From: a virus
Strand: one strand, 5' to 3'
IMG/VR virus record: IMGVR_UViG_3300017523_000058
Coordinates: 1-27,809 of that record
DNA length: 27,809 nt
The notes below the pieces were generated by a model. It saw only the letters and a program-made list of their open reading frames with translations. It searched no databases and was not told the origin of the DNA. The position numbers and the translations under genes are program-made. Shown in pieces: positions 4,494 to 19,048 of this stretch. Positions within the stretch are counted from its first letter, which is position 1; each line of letters begins with the position of its first letter.

Positions 4494-7400
4494 TTTCCCC
4501 AACCAGGGCGACGATTTCAAGATCACGCTGCGGAACAGTGAATACCCGCAGTTCGGCCGCGACTTTGCCGAGAACATCCAGGAGTTCAATCCGGAAATCT
4601 GGTCGGCTGGCGGGAACATCCGCGGGAACGAGGCGTTTGAGCTTTGGGGTCAGGCCCGCGACGGCTCCGAGGACCCCGAGGTCCTGGACTGGATCAAAGA
4701 ACGAGAGGCCTGGGCGGCTCGGCATTTCGACAACGGCAGCCAGTTTGCCAACGGTGACCTGGAGCCCAACATGTCGAATGTGGCCGGAGTGGTCGCTCAG
4801 ATGAAATGGGGCGTTATCGGGGCGATTGGCGAACAGGGGATGAAGGACGTCATTCTGGAGCTGGTAAAGAAGCTAGAGGGCAAAAAAGAGAACCGCCAGC
4901 TATCTGATGAAGTCGAAGAAGGCCTTGCAAACAAGCGCGACGAGCATAACGAGGAGGTCGGTGACGACGAGCTGCGCCGGGCAACGCTGCCGATGCTCCG
5001 TCAGGTTTTCGAGCGCGGCGTCGGTGCTTATGAGAACAATCCCGCGTCAGTGCGTCCGGGCGTATCCGGCCCCGAGCAGTGGGCATATGCGCGAGTAAAT
5101 TCTTTCCTTTTCGCGTTGAAAAACGATCGCTTCCAGGGAGGTGAGCATGACACCGATCTGTTCCCGGACGGGCACCCGCTGGCGGGCGATGAGCGCGGTA
5201 ACTACAAGGACGAGCGTCCGTATCCAAACGAGCACGCCGCTAGGATCAACGATCCTGACAAATACGACACATTCCGGCGCGACGCGAATGCTGGCGGCGA
5301 TGGTATAGATTTCATCTATGGTATATTCAGTCGAAATGATGAACGCGTTTCGGAAATCCAGAGTGTGAGATTCGACGCGGATCGGTACACTCGGCAAGAA
5401 TCTATGGATTGGTTGGCGGATCACAATATGGAACCGATAAAGTTTGAAGAAGCGGTGGTAGAGCGATCCGAACGGGATGCGGAAATGCCTTGCCCGCCGG
5501 CCACCCAGAATCTCGAGCTCAACACCCAAAACCGTGACCGCGCCATCCGCATGTTCAATTACGGGCCTCTCAATGTGGACGAGCCAGGCGATTACTGGGA
5601 AAACGTCGCTGAGTATTGGGATACAACGGTCGAGGCCGCTCGGGCGTCAAAATGCGCTAATTGCGTCGCTTTCGACATCTCCCAGCGGATGAAAAACTGC
5701 ATGCCTGGCGAAACGTCAAATGATGATGGCGAACTTGGCTACTGTTGGATGCACCATTTCAAATGTCACTCGGCTCGGACTTGCCACACTTGGGCGAAAG
5801 GTGGTCCGATTCAGTCTGACGAAACATCCTATGAGTGGCAGGCAAACGCCTTCGGGGGCAGCGAAGAAAGTCAGGAGTCGGGCGATATGGGCATTGAGAT
5901 GGGTGAAAATCGGCACATTGTCGAGATCACTGAGGATGAAGAATCCATCCTGGTCAAGTTTGCAAAGGGCGCTGAGTTCGAGGGCATTAACATCATGCCG
6001 GAAGAAGTACAGGATGCCGAAGAAGAATCTGGCAGCGAGATCGAGGTCGAGCGGTTTTCAAAAACTGAGACCCTGCATCGCGCCGAAACAATGGACCCCG
6101 AGACGATCGACGATCGCCGGGTTCGCATGGCGGTGAGTTCTGAGATGGCGGTTGAGCGTGGCTATGGTAAGGAGGTTCTGGACCATAGCCGCGGGAGCGT
6201 CGATCTCGACTTCATGAATTCTGGCCGAGCGCCGCTTCTCCTGGATCACGATCCAGAGCGGCAGATTGGCGTTGTCGAATCGGTAGACCTTGACGAGCAG
6301 GCCGGCCGTCTCCGAGCTGTTGCGCGTTTTAGTCGGAACGCGCTCGCGAGCGAGGTCTATGACGATGTGGTGGATGGTATCCGTGGGAATGTTTCCATCG
6401 GCTACCGTGTCACCAAAATGGCCCGCGATGAAGGGAACATGGACGTGTTCCGCGCGACTTCATGGCAGCCGCTCGAAGTCTCGATCGTTTCCATCCCAGC
6501 CGACCAGTCAGTCGGTGTGGGGCGTGCGCACGAGAGTTCACCTGCAACCGAAACCGAAAGTTCAGTTCCTACCGTGGAGGTAAACGAAATGGAACAGTCT
6601 AACGATGCGGTGCGCCAGGAAGCACTTTCTGCGTACCAGAAGGAAGTCGGCGAGATCATTGATCTCGGCGTCCGTCACAACCGTCGTGACCTGGCTGACG
6701 ATGCTATCCGTAAGGGTATGGGTCTGACGCAGTTCCGTGGCCTTCTCCTAGACAAGATTGCGGACAAGCCGCTCGATGCCCCGGAGATTGACATGAACGC
6801 GAAGGAGCAGCGTCAGTATTCGCTGATGAATGCCATCCGTTCTGCCGCGAATGGTCGCCTGGACGGGTTTGAGGCGGAGGTCTCCCAGGATCTTGCTCGC
6901 CATTATGGCAAGGAAGCCCGCGGGTTTTTCGTCCCGACCTCGATCTTCAAGCGTGACATTCTGACCACCAGCCCGGCCAACGGCTCCAACCTGGTGCCCG
7001 AGGATCACCTGGCGGGGGAGTTCATCGACGCGCTGCGTGCCAACCTGGTGATTTCCGGCCTTGGTGCCCGCATGATGCAGGGTCTCAAGGGCGACGTCGC
7101 CATTCCGGCGCTCAATAGCAAGACGACCGTCGGCTTTGTCAGCGAAAACGCTGCGCCTGGTTCCGAGGGGGCGCCTGATTTCCGCCAGGTGACCATGACG
7201 CCCAAGGAGATGCGCCAGCACGTTGATATCAGCCGTAAGCTGATGATGCAGTCCGATCCTTCGGTGGAGCAGATCATTCGTGACGACTTGACCCGTCAGT
7301 TCGCTGCGAAGATCGACGAGGTTGCCATCGAGGGCGGCGGCTCGGGTGAGCCGACCGGCATCCTGGAGACCAACGGCATTGGGTCGGTGGCTCTGGGCAC

Positions 7401-14765: not shown

Positions 14766-15620
14766 ATGTCGAACATGATTATCTCGTCAACTAATTATTC
14801 GGATCAGGCGACCAGCATCACCGCCAGCAGCGAGGTCGCGAGCCTGCCAGTGGAGAACTTGCAGGACCGCCAGCTCGTCAAGGTGTATCGCTCCGATGGC
14901 GCCACCGACATTGCCATCGATGTCGATTTCGGACAGGGCCGGATCATCGACTTTGTGGCGCTTGTGCGGCACAACATTACTCAGACTGGACAGATTCGAT
15001 GGCGGCTCTCCAATGTGGCCGACTTTTCAACTACTCAGCACGATTCCGGATTCGTCGATGCTTGGCCGGTCGTCGAGGAGTTCGGTACTTTGCCCTGGGG
15101 CGTATTTTCCTGGGGCGGCCGGATTAACCCGGAGGTCGCTGCGGAGTATCAGATCAGTTCGTTCGTGGTCCTCGATGCGCCTGTCCAGGCCCGCTACCTG
15201 CGGATTGATATATCAGACGCCGACCAGGACGAGGGGTACATTGAGGCCGGGCGATTGATCGCTGGCCCGGCCTTTCGGCCGTCGACGAACTACGGGTTCG
15301 GCGTCGAAATTCAATTTGTCGACGAGTCGAGGATCGTGAAGTCTCGCGGCGGACAGACATTCGTCGATGAGGTCGAGCGTTTCCGGCGGATTCGTTTTGA
15401 ATTGCAGAACCTGCCGGAGGCTGAAATCTTCGGCAATGTGTTCAATAATATCGACCGACTGCGCGGCGTCGCAAAAGACATTCTGGTGATACCGCAACCG
15501 GATGATCCAAAAACGTGGCCGACCCAAAACATATACGGGCGGCTGGTAAGAACTGAACCGATCATTAACAGCACGCTCGAATTTTACGGGCGCACGATCG
15601 AGATAGAGGAATTGATCTGA
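14766..15620 (+). CDS. Tail-tip protein with a discoidin-like (carbohydrate-binding) domain
   Basis: The 284-residue protein has an N-terminal region with the pattern of a galactose-binding (F5/8 type C, discoidin-like) fold: SSEVASLPVENLQDRQLVKVYRS, a strand DIAIDVDFGQGRIIDFVALVRHN (about 48-70), then tryptophan-rich WRLSNVADFSTT and PWGVFSWGG, and VQARYLRIDISDADQDEGYIEAGRL (about 141-165). The C-terminal ~110 residues (VEIQFVDESRIVKSRGGQTFVDE...YGRLVRTEPIINS) look like a tail attachment domain. Such proteins sit at the tail tip and may bind host glycans or attach fibres. It follows the hub-like gene by three bases and overlaps the fibre gene by one base. Function is inferred. Confidence 0.6.
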   Translation: MSNMIISSTNYSDQATSITASSEVASLPVENLQDRQLVKVYRSDGATDIAIDVDFGQGRIIDFVALVRHNITQTGQIRWRLSNVADFSTTQHDSGFVDAWPVVEEFGTLPWGVFSWGGRINPEVAAEYQISSFVVLDAPVQARYLRIDISDADQDEGYIEAGRLIAGPAFRPSTNYGFGVEIQFVDESRIVKSRGGQTFVDEVERFRRIRFELQNLPEAEIFGNVFNNIDRLRGVAKDILVIPQPDDPKTWPTQNIYGRLVRTEPIINSTLEFYGRTIEIEELI

Positions 15621-17215
15621 TGGCATTTCCAGTTACTTTGAACGGCCGCACTTACACCTTGGCGGACTTCGAGGGCACGAATTACGTCGACGGATTCCCA
15701 GATGCTCTAGAAGATTTTGTCACCCAGGCGGGCGATATCTACAACGACACGTCCTCGACGTCCGAGGCCATCGGCACCGGATCGAAAACCTTTACGGTTT
15801 CAGAAGGCAAACCTTACCAGGAAGGCACGCCGCTTCGCATCGCCGATGCGAGTTCGCCTGAGATCAATTTCCTCGATTGTGTGGTCACCAGCTATTCGGG
15901 AACGTCGCTGACTGTAAACGCTTTCGGCTTCGCTGGCAGCGGCACTTATTCGTCCTGGACAATCAACATTGGCGGCGCAAAGACCGTCGATGGCACGCTG
16001 GCGGTGAATCAGGGCGGGACCGGTTCAACATCGGCCTCCGGCGCGCGGACGAATCTCGGCCTCGGATCAATCGCTACGCAGGATGCCGACAACGTCAATC
16101 TGGAAGGCGGCTCAATCACCGGCACCGATATTGATATCTCGGGCGCGACATTCACGGTTGCTAACAATCAGATTTCCGGCGATGCGATCAACGGCGGCAC
16201 TATCAGCGGCACGAATGTTGACGTCTCCGGATCCACGTTCACCGTCGCGAATGGCCAGGTCAGCGGATCGGCTCTGCAAGACAACAGCGTCTCCGGCAAT
16301 AAGATTATTTCCGTCAACTATGACAACTCGACCTCAGGCCTGGAGGCGACAAATGTCCAAGGGGCGATTGACGAGGCAGTCGAGAGCTTTGTCGGGCGTA
16401 AAGAACAGATTGCCCAGGGCTTTATCCAGCGCGAGGGCACGCGGGGGGATCTTGATGTCGACCTGGCCGTTGCCATTGAGCTCAACCTGCTCGGCGCGCC
16501 AGTCGCTGGCGGCTTTTATGCGGGGTTGATTGACACAATCGCTGGCACAATCGACAGTCAAGATGACTACCAGACCGGGCTTCGCTACGCGCTCATTGTC
16601 GCGCCGAAGTCACTCGAGGGAGGCCGTGGATCGGCGCCAGCTTCGGGGCTTCCGACAGGCGATCTAGAATGGGACACGCAATCTCGCGGCGGCGAGGCTG
16701 GATGCTTTACCCGCTGGAATGGCCTTGAGGCAACAAACGTCATCATCGGCAAAGGTGACTCATCTTATGAAGTGCATGACTTCATCGAGGCTTGCCGCCT
16801 TCAGTATCCGGCGGTTTCAACGCCTGGCGGTAGTGCGTGGTATCTCCCCGCCATGGACGAGCTGGAGCTTCTTTACAGGAACTTCAAGCCCAACAATGCG
16901 GACAACCGCGACGACACGCGCAACCGAAACTTCCCCGGCACACAGGTGGTCGGCACCAACCCGTCATCGGCCATTGAGGGCTTTCAGTACGAGAACAGCC
17001 CACGCATTCCTGATGTGACCTATCTGGACCTGTTTAAGGAAAACGCCGCGCAATCCCTAGATCAGCTCCGTTACTGGTCAACGACCGACGCCGATGAAGG
17101 GGGCCGTGCCTGGGTCCAGGGCTTCACGAATTCTGGCAATGAGGGCATCCAGTTTGCCGTCAGCAAGGACAACAGCAGCAACAGTGTGCGTCCTGTCCGG
17201 CGCGTCGTCCTTTAA
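15620..17215 (+). CDS. Tail fibre with a C-terminal lectin-like (DGR-type variable) domain
   Basis: The 531-residue receptor-binding protein has an N-terminal attachment part (1-120), a fibre motif NQGGTGSTSASGARTNLGLG (about 130-149) common in phage fibres, two 29-residue repeats (about 163-220), a GLEATNVQGAIDEAVESF segment (about 234-251) and a C-terminal globular domain (about 285-531). That last domain contains GGSAWYLPAMDELELLYRN (about 402-420) and ends YWSTT...AWVQGF...VRPVRRV. This is the DUF1566/formylglycine-enzyme-like C-type lectin fold used by DGR target proteins, where the last ~45 residues form the variable surface. GAGGA nine bases upstream supports the start. Direct neighbours are the tail-tip genes upstream and an Avd-like gene downstream. 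Confidence 0.85.
   Translation: MAFPVTLNGRTYTLADFEGTNYVDGFPDALEDFVTQAGDIYNDTSSTSEAIGTGSKTFTVSEGKPYQEGTPLRIADASSPEINFLDCVVTSYSGTSLTVNAFGFAGSGTYSSWTINIGGAKTVDGTLAVNQGGTGSTSASGARTNLGLGSIATQDADNVNLEGGSITGTDIDISGATFTVANNQISGDAINGGTISGTNVDVSGSTFTVANGQVSGSALQDNSVSGNKIISVNYDNSTSGLEATNVQGAIDEAVESFVGRKEQIAQGFIQREGTRGDLDVDLAVAIELNLLGAPVAGGFYAGLIDTIAGTIDSQDDYQTGLRYALIVAPKSLEGGRGSAPASGLPTGDLEWDTQSRGGEAGCFTRWNGLEATNVIIGKGDSSYEVHDFIEACRLQYPAVSTPGGSAWYLPAMDELELLYRNFKPNNADNRDDTRNRNFPGTQVVGTNPSSAIEGFQYENSPRIPDVTYLDLFKENAAQSLDQLRYWSTTDADEGGRAWVQGFTNSGNEGIQFAVSKDNSSNSVRPVRRVVL
16106..16279 (+). repeat. Two 29-codon tandem repeats in the fibre shaft
   Basis: 16106-16192 and 16193-16279 encode two copies of a pattern GG(S/T)I(S/T)GT(D/N)(I/V)D(I/V)SG(A/S)TFTVAN(N/G)Q(I/V)SG. 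The protein is well conserved between copies while the third codon positions differ, so this is an old duplication under selection, as expected for a beta-helical shaft. Confidence 0.75.
17069..17215 (+). other. Candidate DGR variable region (VR) at the fibre C-terminus
   Basis: The last 48 codons begin RYWSTT, pass AW and GF...GN positions and end VRPVRRVVL, exactly the frame of DGR variable regions, in which codons between these fixed positions derive from adenine-rich template codons. The stretch just before VRPVRR still has AAC and AGC codons in a row (KDNSSNS). The DNA end is GC-rich, as initiation sites of mutagenic homing are. No matching template repeat is visible in this window. Confidence 0.6.
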
Positions 17216-17235
17216 CCTTTGCCCTTTGAACTTTG

Positions 17236-18066
17236 ATGGCAAAGTCGAAAAGCCTACCCGCCTATAAAGAGGCGCAGCGGCTTGTTAGCACGCTGCATGA
17301 GACGACGCGCAAGTCTCCAAAGGAGTTACGACTGACCCTTGTTCAAAGGCTGCTATCAGAGTCGGTGGAGGTGATCGTTGACATCGACACGGCCAACCGG
17401 CTCCAGAGCCATGCGAGGGCCAATCAAATTGAACGGGCCAAGCGCCGCAGCGCTCGCCTGGACGTCTTGCTGTTTGTTGCGATGGAGCAGCGATGCTTAT
17501 CCAAAGGCGCGCCGGACTTATCTCAGGCGGCGGACAGCACAAAAGGGCAGCCGAGCTATGAAACAGCTATCGCACAATCTTCACAAAGGCGAAACGCTGA
17601 CGTCATATATGGCTCTCGCCCGGCATTGCAACGCTTATCGTTTGCGGAAACAATGGGCGATAGAGGCATCACAGCATGGGGTGGTCACCATGCGAAATCT
17701 GACAAAAGCGAGGGCAGTCGCATGACAATGGCAAAGGTCGAAAATGGCAAAGTCACCCTGGTCGGCTTGCCGATCAATCTCAGATCATTTAATCGCGCCG
17801 AATTGAAGCGCATGGGGTGGCATAAAATCGTTGGCACTGAGAAGCCTGCCGAGACTCCTGAGCCAGCGCACCAGTGGAATTACGGGGCCGACTGGTCAGC
17901 CGAGGATGGCGTCGTCTACGGCACCTGGTCGCAGCAGCAGCGCCCGCAGCCGTATCCGAGCTGGTCATGGGTCGAAGGAGAAGGATGGGTTCCTCCTGTC
18001 GCGCAGCCAAAAGGCGATTACTACTGGGACGAAGAAGCCCAGGAATGGAAGGAAGAGGTCCTTTGA
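17236..18066 (+). CDS. avd: Avd-like four-helix protein, open in frame into the next gene
   Basis: The frame opens at ATG 17236 (a TTG precedes it) 20 bases after the fibre stop, with no clear Shine-Dalgarno. Residues about 1-105 resemble DGR accessory variability proteins: SLPAYKEAQRLVSTLHETTRKSPKELRLTLVQRLL, an I..AN...SHARANQIERAKRRSARLDVLLFVAMEQRCLS segment, and LSQAADSTKGQ, matching the family's helical pattern (fPRExRyTLGQRL, AN, LDxL, LSxA, IGKQ). Family members are about 110-130 residues and end soon after that motif. Here the frame instead runs on without a stop through unrelated sequence (about 110-162) and into the 17722 gene, giving 276 codons. A deletion that removed the original end is the simplest reading. 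In cells, Avd binds the reverse transcriptase and template RNA; here it has no partner in view. Whether a 276-residue fusion is made is unknown. Confidence 0.55.
   Translation: MAKSKSLPAYKEAQRLVSTLHETTRKSPKELRLTLVQRLLSESVEVIVDIDTANRLQSHARANQIERAKRRSARLDVLLFVAMEQRCLSKGAPDLSQAADSTKGQPSYETAIAQSSQRRNADVIYGSRPALQRLSFAETMGDRGITAWGGHHAKSDKSEGSRMTMAKVENGKVTLVGLPINLRSFNRAELKRMGWHKIVGTEKPAETPEPAHQWNYGADWSAEDGVVYGTWSQQQRPQPYPSWSWVEGEGWVPPVAQPKGDYYWDEEAQEWKEEVL
17558..17725 (+). pseudogene. Remnant of a DGR reverse transcriptase C-terminus
   Basis: A 55-codon frame, different from that of the Avd-like gene, encodes LHKGETLTSYMALARHCNAY followed by RLRKQWAIEASQHG. The SY-x4-RHCNAYRLRK pattern resembles the terminal domain of DGR and related reverse transcriptases (SYxGxxKHCxSY, or SYLGHxxHANxYRLR). 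Its stop overlaps the ATG of the 17722 gene as ATGA, the usual join of intact neighbouring genes here, so this is probably the authentic 3' end of a once full gene of about 350 codons. The catalytic palm motifs (YADD-like) are absent. An AAGGG lies ten bases before ATG 17558, so a 55-residue peptide could still be made. The identification is from remembered family pattern, without any search. Confidence 0.48.
17722..18066 (+). CDS. Aromatic-rich small virion-type protein
   Basis: The 114-residue protein starts at ATG 17722 (AGGG seven bases before it) or at ATG 17728, whose MAKVENGKVTLVGLP is a characteristic beginning for small proteins following phage fibre genes. After a short domain (LRSFNRAELKRMGWHKIVG), there are repeated Trp/Tyr motifs: HQWNYGADWSAEDGVVYGTW, YPSWSWVEGEGWVPP and YYWDEEAQEWKE. 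These resemble short repeats in fibre-associated or fibre-assembly proteins. The function is not established. It overlaps the reverse-transcriptase remnant by ATGA and is in frame with the Avd-like gene upstream. GAGG near its end serves the following gene. Confidence 0.68.
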   Translation: MTMAKVENGKVTLVGLPINLRSFNRAELKRMGWHKIVGTEKPAETPEPAHQWNYGADWSAEDGVVYGTWSQQQRPQPYPSWSWVEGEGWVPPVAQPKGDYYWDEEAQEWKEEVL

Positions 18067-18067
18067 A

Positions 18068-18322
18068 ATGGATTTCCAGACGCTATTCAACGCTGCCATC
18101 GGCGGGGTCATGCTTCTGGCTGGCTGGTTTATGCGCGTGATGTGGGATTCTATTCAGAAGCTACATCAAGACGATAGAGAGCTCTCAGACAAGGTGAGCC
18201 GCATCGAGGTACTGGTCGCTGGTGAGTACGTCAAGCGCGACGAGTTTGATCGGTCGATGGAGCGACTTTTCGACAAGCTCGATCATATCGAGATGAAAAT
18301 CGACTCGAAGGCCGACAAATAA
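18068..18322 (+). CDS. Membrane-anchored coiled-coil protein
   Basis: ATG 18068 is preceded by GAGG nine bases upstream; the longer open frame is a shadow. The 84-residue product has an N-terminal membrane segment (about 7-24, LFNAAIGGVMLLAGWFMR) and a charged helical remainder with a heptad-like run (LHQDDRELSDKVSRIEVLVAGEYVKRDEFDRSMERLFDKLDHIEMKIDSK). Phages often have such one-pass proteins beside the lysis genes. It could be an accessory to the holin or a spanin-like element, but there is no lipobox partner visible, so the role is open. It lies two bases after the preceding gene and just before a virion-type gene and the holin/endolysin pair. Confidence 0.7.
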   Translation: MDFQTLFNAAIGGVMLLAGWFMRVMWDSIQKLHQDDRELSDKVSRIEVLVAGEYVKRDEFDRSMERLFDKLDHIEMKIDSKADK

Positions 18323-18331
18323 GGAATCGCC

Positions 18332-19048
18332 ATGGCAATTCGCGACCTAAAAGCCACATCCAGCCGAGACGCTTTTTTTGACGTCGCTCGCGGCCTTCGA
18401 CCTGATTGCGAGACTGTCCACCTTTTCGGAATCAACAACGCAGTCGGGACGTCGTTTGAGACCATTTTCGATGACGGCGGCGTCTACCCATTCCCGGAGA
18501 CGGCCCAGACGCTCGGAGTAGTGTCCGATGATTCTGGCGACACAATGGACATTCTCATCACGGGCCTAGATAGCGATTACAACCAAATCACTGAAACCGT
18601 CACGCTCACCGGCCAAACCCAGGCGACTACAAGCCAAAAGTTTCTGCGCGTAAACGACGCCCGGATCGCCAGTGGCGAGAACGTCGGCGATATTACAATA
18701 TCGAGCGGCAGTGACGTGGTGGCGATTATCAAAGCAGGCGATGGCGTGCACCAGGCGATCGTTTATTCCGTCCCGGCCGGACGCTCTCTTTTTATCAAAA
18801 AGGTTCTGTTGGACGGAACGATGAGCGGCGATAAAGTTTTCCGATTCAGGGCCGCTCTGCATGACCCGGTGGCAGACAATCTGATTCTTCGATTCTGGGA
18901 GTCTATAACGTCAACTTCGATGGACTTCAACCTGGACATTCCATTCCTGGTCCCTGAGAAAAAAGACTTTTGCATCGAGGCGCGAGCGGAAAACACCTCC
19001 GGTCCAGTGGCCGCCTACGTCTCGGCGTTGCTTATAAAGGAGCCGTGA
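18332..19048 (+). CDS. Probable virion structural protein
   Basis: The 238-residue, mostly beta protein has the pattern seen in virion proteins of marine phages: a start AFFDVARGLRPDCETVHLFGINNAVGTSFETIFDDGG (about 14-50) and a central domain with DILITGLDSDYNQITETVTLTGQT (about 72-95). Then come FLRVNDARIAS and a C-terminal half with IVYSVPAGRSLFIKKVLLDG (about 147-166). No enzymatic motif is seen. AAGGA precedes the ATG by six bases. Its location between fibre-associated genes and lysis genes suggests a tail or capsid decoration role, but I cannot decide which. Confidence 0.62.
   Translation: MAIRDLKATSSRDAFFDVARGLRPDCETVHLFGINNAVGTSFETIFDDGGVYPFPETAQTLGVVSDDSGDTMDILITGLDSDYNQITETVTLTGQTQATTSQKFLRVNDARIASGENVGDITISSGSDVVAIIKAGDGVHQAIVYSVPAGRSLFIKKVLLDGTMSGDKVFRFRAALHDPVADNLILRFWESITSTSMDFNLDIPFLVPEKKDFCIEARAENTSGPVAAYVSALLIKEP

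Follow-up and report, generated by a model that had tools for sequence, protein, structure and literature searches.

The diversity-generating retroelement (DGR) of Bordetella phage BPP-1 is arranged in the order mtd-avd-TR-brt, with the C-type-lectin-like tip of the tail fibre as its target. Catalogues of DGRs are usually built by finding the reverse transcriptase (RT), and phages that have lost theirs are therefore invisible to such surveys. Inactivation of DGRs is already known from bacteria: the DiGReF survey describes elements disrupted by a nonsense mutation in Ruminococcus gnavus, an IS insertion in Acaryochloris and a frameshift in Bacteroides (PMC3521204), and isolates of Treponema denticola harbor remnant target genes with neither RT nor TR (PMC4891356). 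A survey of hypermutation targets reports both active and inactive DGRs, in passages that make no mention of deletions (PMC8144416).

The window analysed here is a stretch of 27,809 nt from a virus (IMG/VR record IMGVR_UViG_3300017523_000058), and probably represents about three quarters of a genome (27.8 kb versus about 38 kb). Its intact relatives resemble BPP-1 both in the order target/VR - avd - TR - RT and in having a lectin-like tip as the target, whereas the window has neither a template repeat (TR) nor an RT core, and its Avd is missing the tail. The window very likely contains a dead DGR remnant, created by one deletion in a former fibre/VR - avd - TR - RT cassette. The features concerned are as follows:

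15620 to 17215, plus strand: tail-fibre gene, 531 aa, with a C-type-lectin-like (Lcl_C/DUF1566) tip; one-time DGR target
17102 to 17200, plus strand: variable region (VR), 99 nt, GGCCGTGCCTGG...GTGCGTCCTGTCCGG; its 3' terminus is the conserved IMH-like end
17236 to 17508, plus strand: avd remnant, cut after codon 91 of 131 and so without its C-terminal 40 codons
17508 to 17511, plus strand: deletion junction, a 4-bp overlap, CGCG, with exact matching of both flanks to the intact relative L001
17510 to 17725, plus strand: RT remnant, codons 297-367 plus stop, in a frame different from that of avd
17236 to 18066, plus strand: fortuitous 276-codon open frame that runs from Avd 1-91 through about 70 codons out of frame into the downstream gene
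17722 to 18066, plus strand: gene after the RT, 114 aa, whose ATG shares bases with the RT stop, an arrangement also found in intact relatives
17211 to 18602, plus strand: L001-like tract, 93-100% identity (mostly 96-100%) by sliding identity

A first-pass annotation of the letters alone had proposed a DGR remnant beside the tail fibre, and all three of its parts are present, well above chance. The fibre gene matches the PHROG tail fibre in a profile search (E=5e-6), and the C-type-lectin-like architecture proposed for it is borne out by a match of the tip to Lcl_C (PF07603; E=3.6e-5, under the gathering score) and by 52-90% identity to the fibres of DGR-bearing relatives. The VR, located at the end of the fibre gene, aligns without gaps to the TRs of related phages, and both it and its 3' end are intact. 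As the annotation had also stated, the TR and the RT catalytic core are absent: within the window the VR is single copy, with no second VR-like copy or TR found, and no RVT_1 match was obtained.

The avd frame matches phrog_3206, 'Avd protein of DGR' (E=1.9e-9), and NF033474, DivGenRetAVD (E=1.1e-4), while remaining under the curated Pfam and NCBIfam cut-offs, as expected of a truncated copy. The proposal of an Avd-like gene therefore stands, with its end moved from 17560 to 17508. A search of solved structures with the Avd sequence gave no match, so that which structural element was lost can be read only from the alignment. Of the profile searches that had been suggested as a check, those with Avd were thus positive, while generic RT profiles run on the short RT fragment alone returned nothing significant (phrog_1423, E=0.07) because the catalytic core is gone. 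Comparison with close intact relatives was decisive for this fragment, which matches the C-terminus of the intact L001 RT at 92% over 75 aa (E=1e-45) and that of L005 at 71% over 73 aa (E=5e-34). The fragment is accordingly the RT C-terminus it had been taken for, beginning near 17510 (71 codons) and not at the internal ATG at 17558.

L001 (IMGVR_UViG_3300028383_000043), retrieved by Avd search, carries an intact element of fibre, VR, Avd, TR and RT at the same site, and is the relative that had been predicted, with Avd, TR and RT lying before the counterpart of the 17722 gene and with a shared RT end. Its cassette comprises the following:

L001 862-1257: Avd, 131 aa
L001 1364-1462: TR
L001 1471-2574: RT, 367 aa, with motifs GLPIGNLTSQ and RYVDD

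The L001 RT matches the phage RT family (E=3e-82) and the solved RT 8ub7 (E=3e-34), and its stop codon shares bases with the start codon of the gene behind it, precisely the arrangement seen at window positions 17722-17725; that gene (L001 2571-2912) is 96% identical to its window counterpart and has the same ATGA overlap. Relative to L001, the window lacks exactly 1,223 bp (L001 1138-2360), a correction to the roughly 1 kb first estimated for what does appear to be a deletion. The missing segment consists of the Avd tail, the whole TR and RT codons 1-296 with the SQ and YVDD motifs, and CGCG is found at both L001 breakpoints (1134-1137 and 2357-2360). The window thus has no RT with YxDD and (I/V/L)GxxxSQ motifs, no TR near an RT and no complete Avd, the latter being truncated after codon 91; what it does have is a pair of stumps homologous to both ends of the intact element in a syntenic relative.

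Avd and RT also occupy the same position in L007, which is more distantly related, so that presence of the DGR is probably the older state. Searches of named phages gave no match by DNA and, with the RT protein, only distant DGR phages at about 40% identity or less; the RT was not found in scans of bacterial and archaeal genomes. The contig carrying L002 and L005 (IMGVR_UViG_3300026094_000001; 37,974 bp) has both ends in or beside the TR, the two overlapping one another; it is thus probably a whole genome, either circular or terminally redundant, that was split at the TR.

Taken together, these comparisons suggest that the ancestral lineage would have carried a standard fibre/VR - avd - TR - RT cassette, from which one deletion via the 4-bp CGCG overlap would have taken everything from the avd 3' end through the TR to RT codon 296. 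The remaining parts would yield no mutagenic cDNA in cis, a loss of activity inferred from the missing parts, and the fibre tip would stay fixed at its last rewritten state, barring help in trans. Microhomology is the putative route of the deletion, with the qualification that 4 bp may coincide by chance in GC-rich DNA. Judging by the stumps, the event is recent: compared with the intact copy, that of avd has 99% identity and that of the RT 96%, and neither contains a stop or a frameshift. Specifically, the window Avd is 99% identical to that of L001, the avd stump differing by 8 synonymous and 1 nonsynonymous codons, and the RT stump differs by 1 synonymous and 3 nonsynonymous codons; two of the three window residues concerned equal those of L005, and so give no sign of decay.

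It is very improbable that the junction is instead an assembly artefact, in which the contig of a phage with an intact DGR was wrongly joined. The sequence is a metagenome contig, the junction was found in no other viral contig and is thus known from one assembled contig, and near-repeats such as VR and TR do break assemblies, the 26094_000001 contig ending inside its own TR. Against this, the join lies within avd and RT and not in VR or TR, at a 4-bp overlap much shorter than an assembly word, and other deletions of the same element occur on independent contigs.

Evidence of former activity comes from the VR. Both repeats are available for five intact relatives: L001, L005 (the fibre half of which is L002), L046, L047 and L054. 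In every one of them the differences between the VR and its cognate TR fall on A alone, with 9-20 of 28-33 A sites changed and 0 of the 66-71 others. The window's own TR is gone; measured against the nearest TR, that of L046, its VR is changed at 10 of 30 A and 3 of 69 non-A sites (Fisher p=2.8e-4). Third codon positions differ between window and L046 at only 2/33 sites in the VR, compared with 96/204 (47%) elsewhere in the tip (p=2e-6), while codon positions 1 and 2 are over-diverged in the VR (17/66 vs 27/408 outside; p=1.4e-5). Such a pattern is the trace expected of a VR copied again and again from a shared template that itself changes slowly.

The history of the locus also seems to be mosaic. 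Identity to L001, high across 17211-18602, falls to 60-80% on both sides, which points to a recent recombination between phages that begins right behind the VR; more near-identical patches shared by window and L001 lie beyond this tract, up to about 22200. The fibre and VR of the window side with L046 and not with L001, so that an L001-type template probably never rewrote this VR, which fits an L046-type template. The stump region, for its part, appears to have come from, or to have been common to, an L001-like phage, and an exchange with such a phage would be a further step in the proposed history. No intact relative is nearest to the window across fibre and cassette together, and the pre-deletion sequence is therefore a reconstruction from two relatives. 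These observations bear on a less probable, though still conceivable, course of events in which an already deleted piece was received from an L001-like donor and the deletion took place outside this lineage. Both the abrupt edges of the near-identical tract and the mismatches of the VR to the L001 TR (7/70 at non-A sites) would fit such a transfer, but the DGR-made appearance of the VR against the L046 TR suggests that the lineage itself once had an active element. Moreover, a deletion in the donor would be the same event in another genome, so that only the order of events is at issue.

Sister phages, retrieved by searching with the fibre tip and with the gene that follows the RT, fall into four states. 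The element is intact in L001, L005, L046 and L047 as well as in L054, in which avd is frameshifted; half-deleted in the window and in L051; nearly erased in L058 and L084; and without trace in L048/L049, L050 and L053, which have the same fibre tip without the element. In L051 (IMGVR_UViG_3300017502_000006, 4782-5456), as in the window, the 5' part of avd is joined to the 3' part of the RT and the TR is lost; unlike in the window, the breakpoints lie near Avd codon 80 and RT codon 222, the fusion is in frame, and RYVDD is kept while the SQ motif is lost. In L058 (6705-6746), 14 avd codons remain between the fibre and the next gene, and no RT was found in its 36-kb record. About 6 avd codons are left in L084 (4932-4947), where 13/15 bases match the start of L047 avd; this scar is at the expected place, with no other such site in 5.7 kb. 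No two of the window, L051 and L058 have breakpoints in common. Furthermore, the states are interspersed in the fibre-tip tree, whose well-supported branches force at least three changes of the intact label. At least three DGR losses are thus independent, and loss is a repeated event in this phage group, something that the letters of the window alone could not reveal. L054 was not counted as a loss: its TR and VR differ at A sites only, and the avd frameshift (4859-5208, near codon 39) may reflect a pseudogene or a sequencing error. Also excluded as losses were L014-L040, found via the gene upstream of the fibre, whose fibre tips are of other kinds and come with neither Avd nor RT; these phages share the pre-fibre gene and the fibre N-terminus, the tip, with or without a DGR, being a swapped module.

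The L051 fusion and the window's own open frame raise the question of whether the stumps have been put to new use, with the 17236-18066 frame or the Avd-RT fusion yielding a functional protein. Both frames are open, that of the window running from Avd to 18066 and entering the downstream gene in frame, while its L001 counterpart is closed by the stop of avd itself; in L051, Avd 1-80 and the RT from about 222 are joined in frame. The two fusions are, however, unlike in make-up, frame and breakpoints, in the window Avd and the RT stump occupy different frames, and about 70 stop-free codons in GC-rich DNA together with a 1-in-3 frame agreement require no selection. Reuse of this kind is hardly credible.

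The trace-free phages present a different question. Some of them may belong to lineages in which the element was never present, although the VRs of the trace-free phages, too, show an excess of changes at A sites. L048 and L053 have an identical short sequence between the fibre and the next gene, and their shared lack of a DGR probably reflects one loss. Between these two phages, codon positions 1 and 2 differ at 21/66 sites in the VR vs 24/288 outside, and third positions at 2/33 vs 36/144. This difference could be due to rewriting in trans, to import of a VR allele through recombination or to selection acting on exposed residues. For the window, continued rewriting of the VR by the RT and TR of a co-resident phage, or of a part of the genome beyond the contig, the dependence on a DGR elsewhere that the first-pass annotation had offered as an alternative, is unlikely. 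Such rewriting would be consistent with the intact VR and VR 3' end, with the DGR-like manner in which the L048 and L053 VRs differ behind the same DGR-less junction, and with the recovery of intact and lost elements from the same datasets (3300026094, 3300026105). The window VR, like each VR without a DGR in cis, nevertheless has at least three non-A differences from every TR compared, while non-A differences are absent wherever a VR is accompanied by a cis DGR; the 36-kb L058 record is without an RT; and allele recombination or selection fits L048 and L053 equally well. For the group as a whole, the idea that DGR-deleted phages stay subject to rewriting in trans, by DGRs that co-resident phages carry, is a degree more doubtful still. 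Were it true, DGR-less phages would keep the VR and its 3' homing signal while avoiding the cost of the machinery, and the difference between L048 and L053 would be a first sign of trans rewriting.

The preferred reading of the window, a remnant left by one deletion, places it in a series of close fibres in which the DGR ranges from intact through half-deleted and nearly erased to absent, and which shows that loss is repeated. The series allows one to ask when a phage abandons targeted diversification, and whether phages left with a VR alone are still open to diversification by others. Among the open papers searched, none described a graded series of repeated deletions within a single phage group. 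In the bacterial cases of the DiGReF survey, as in the window, the RT was broken recently and the VR keeps its A pattern; there, the TR was kept and only the RT was lost, by point change or insertion, whereas in the window TR, Avd end and RT core went in one deletion, in a phage (PMC3521204). In the T. denticola remnants the target has likewise outlasted the cassette (PMC4891356); in the window, by contrast, stumps and junction are preserved, and an intact copy gives the exact missing segment. What is new relative to these systems is the dissected junction and the graded, repeated loss within one phage group.
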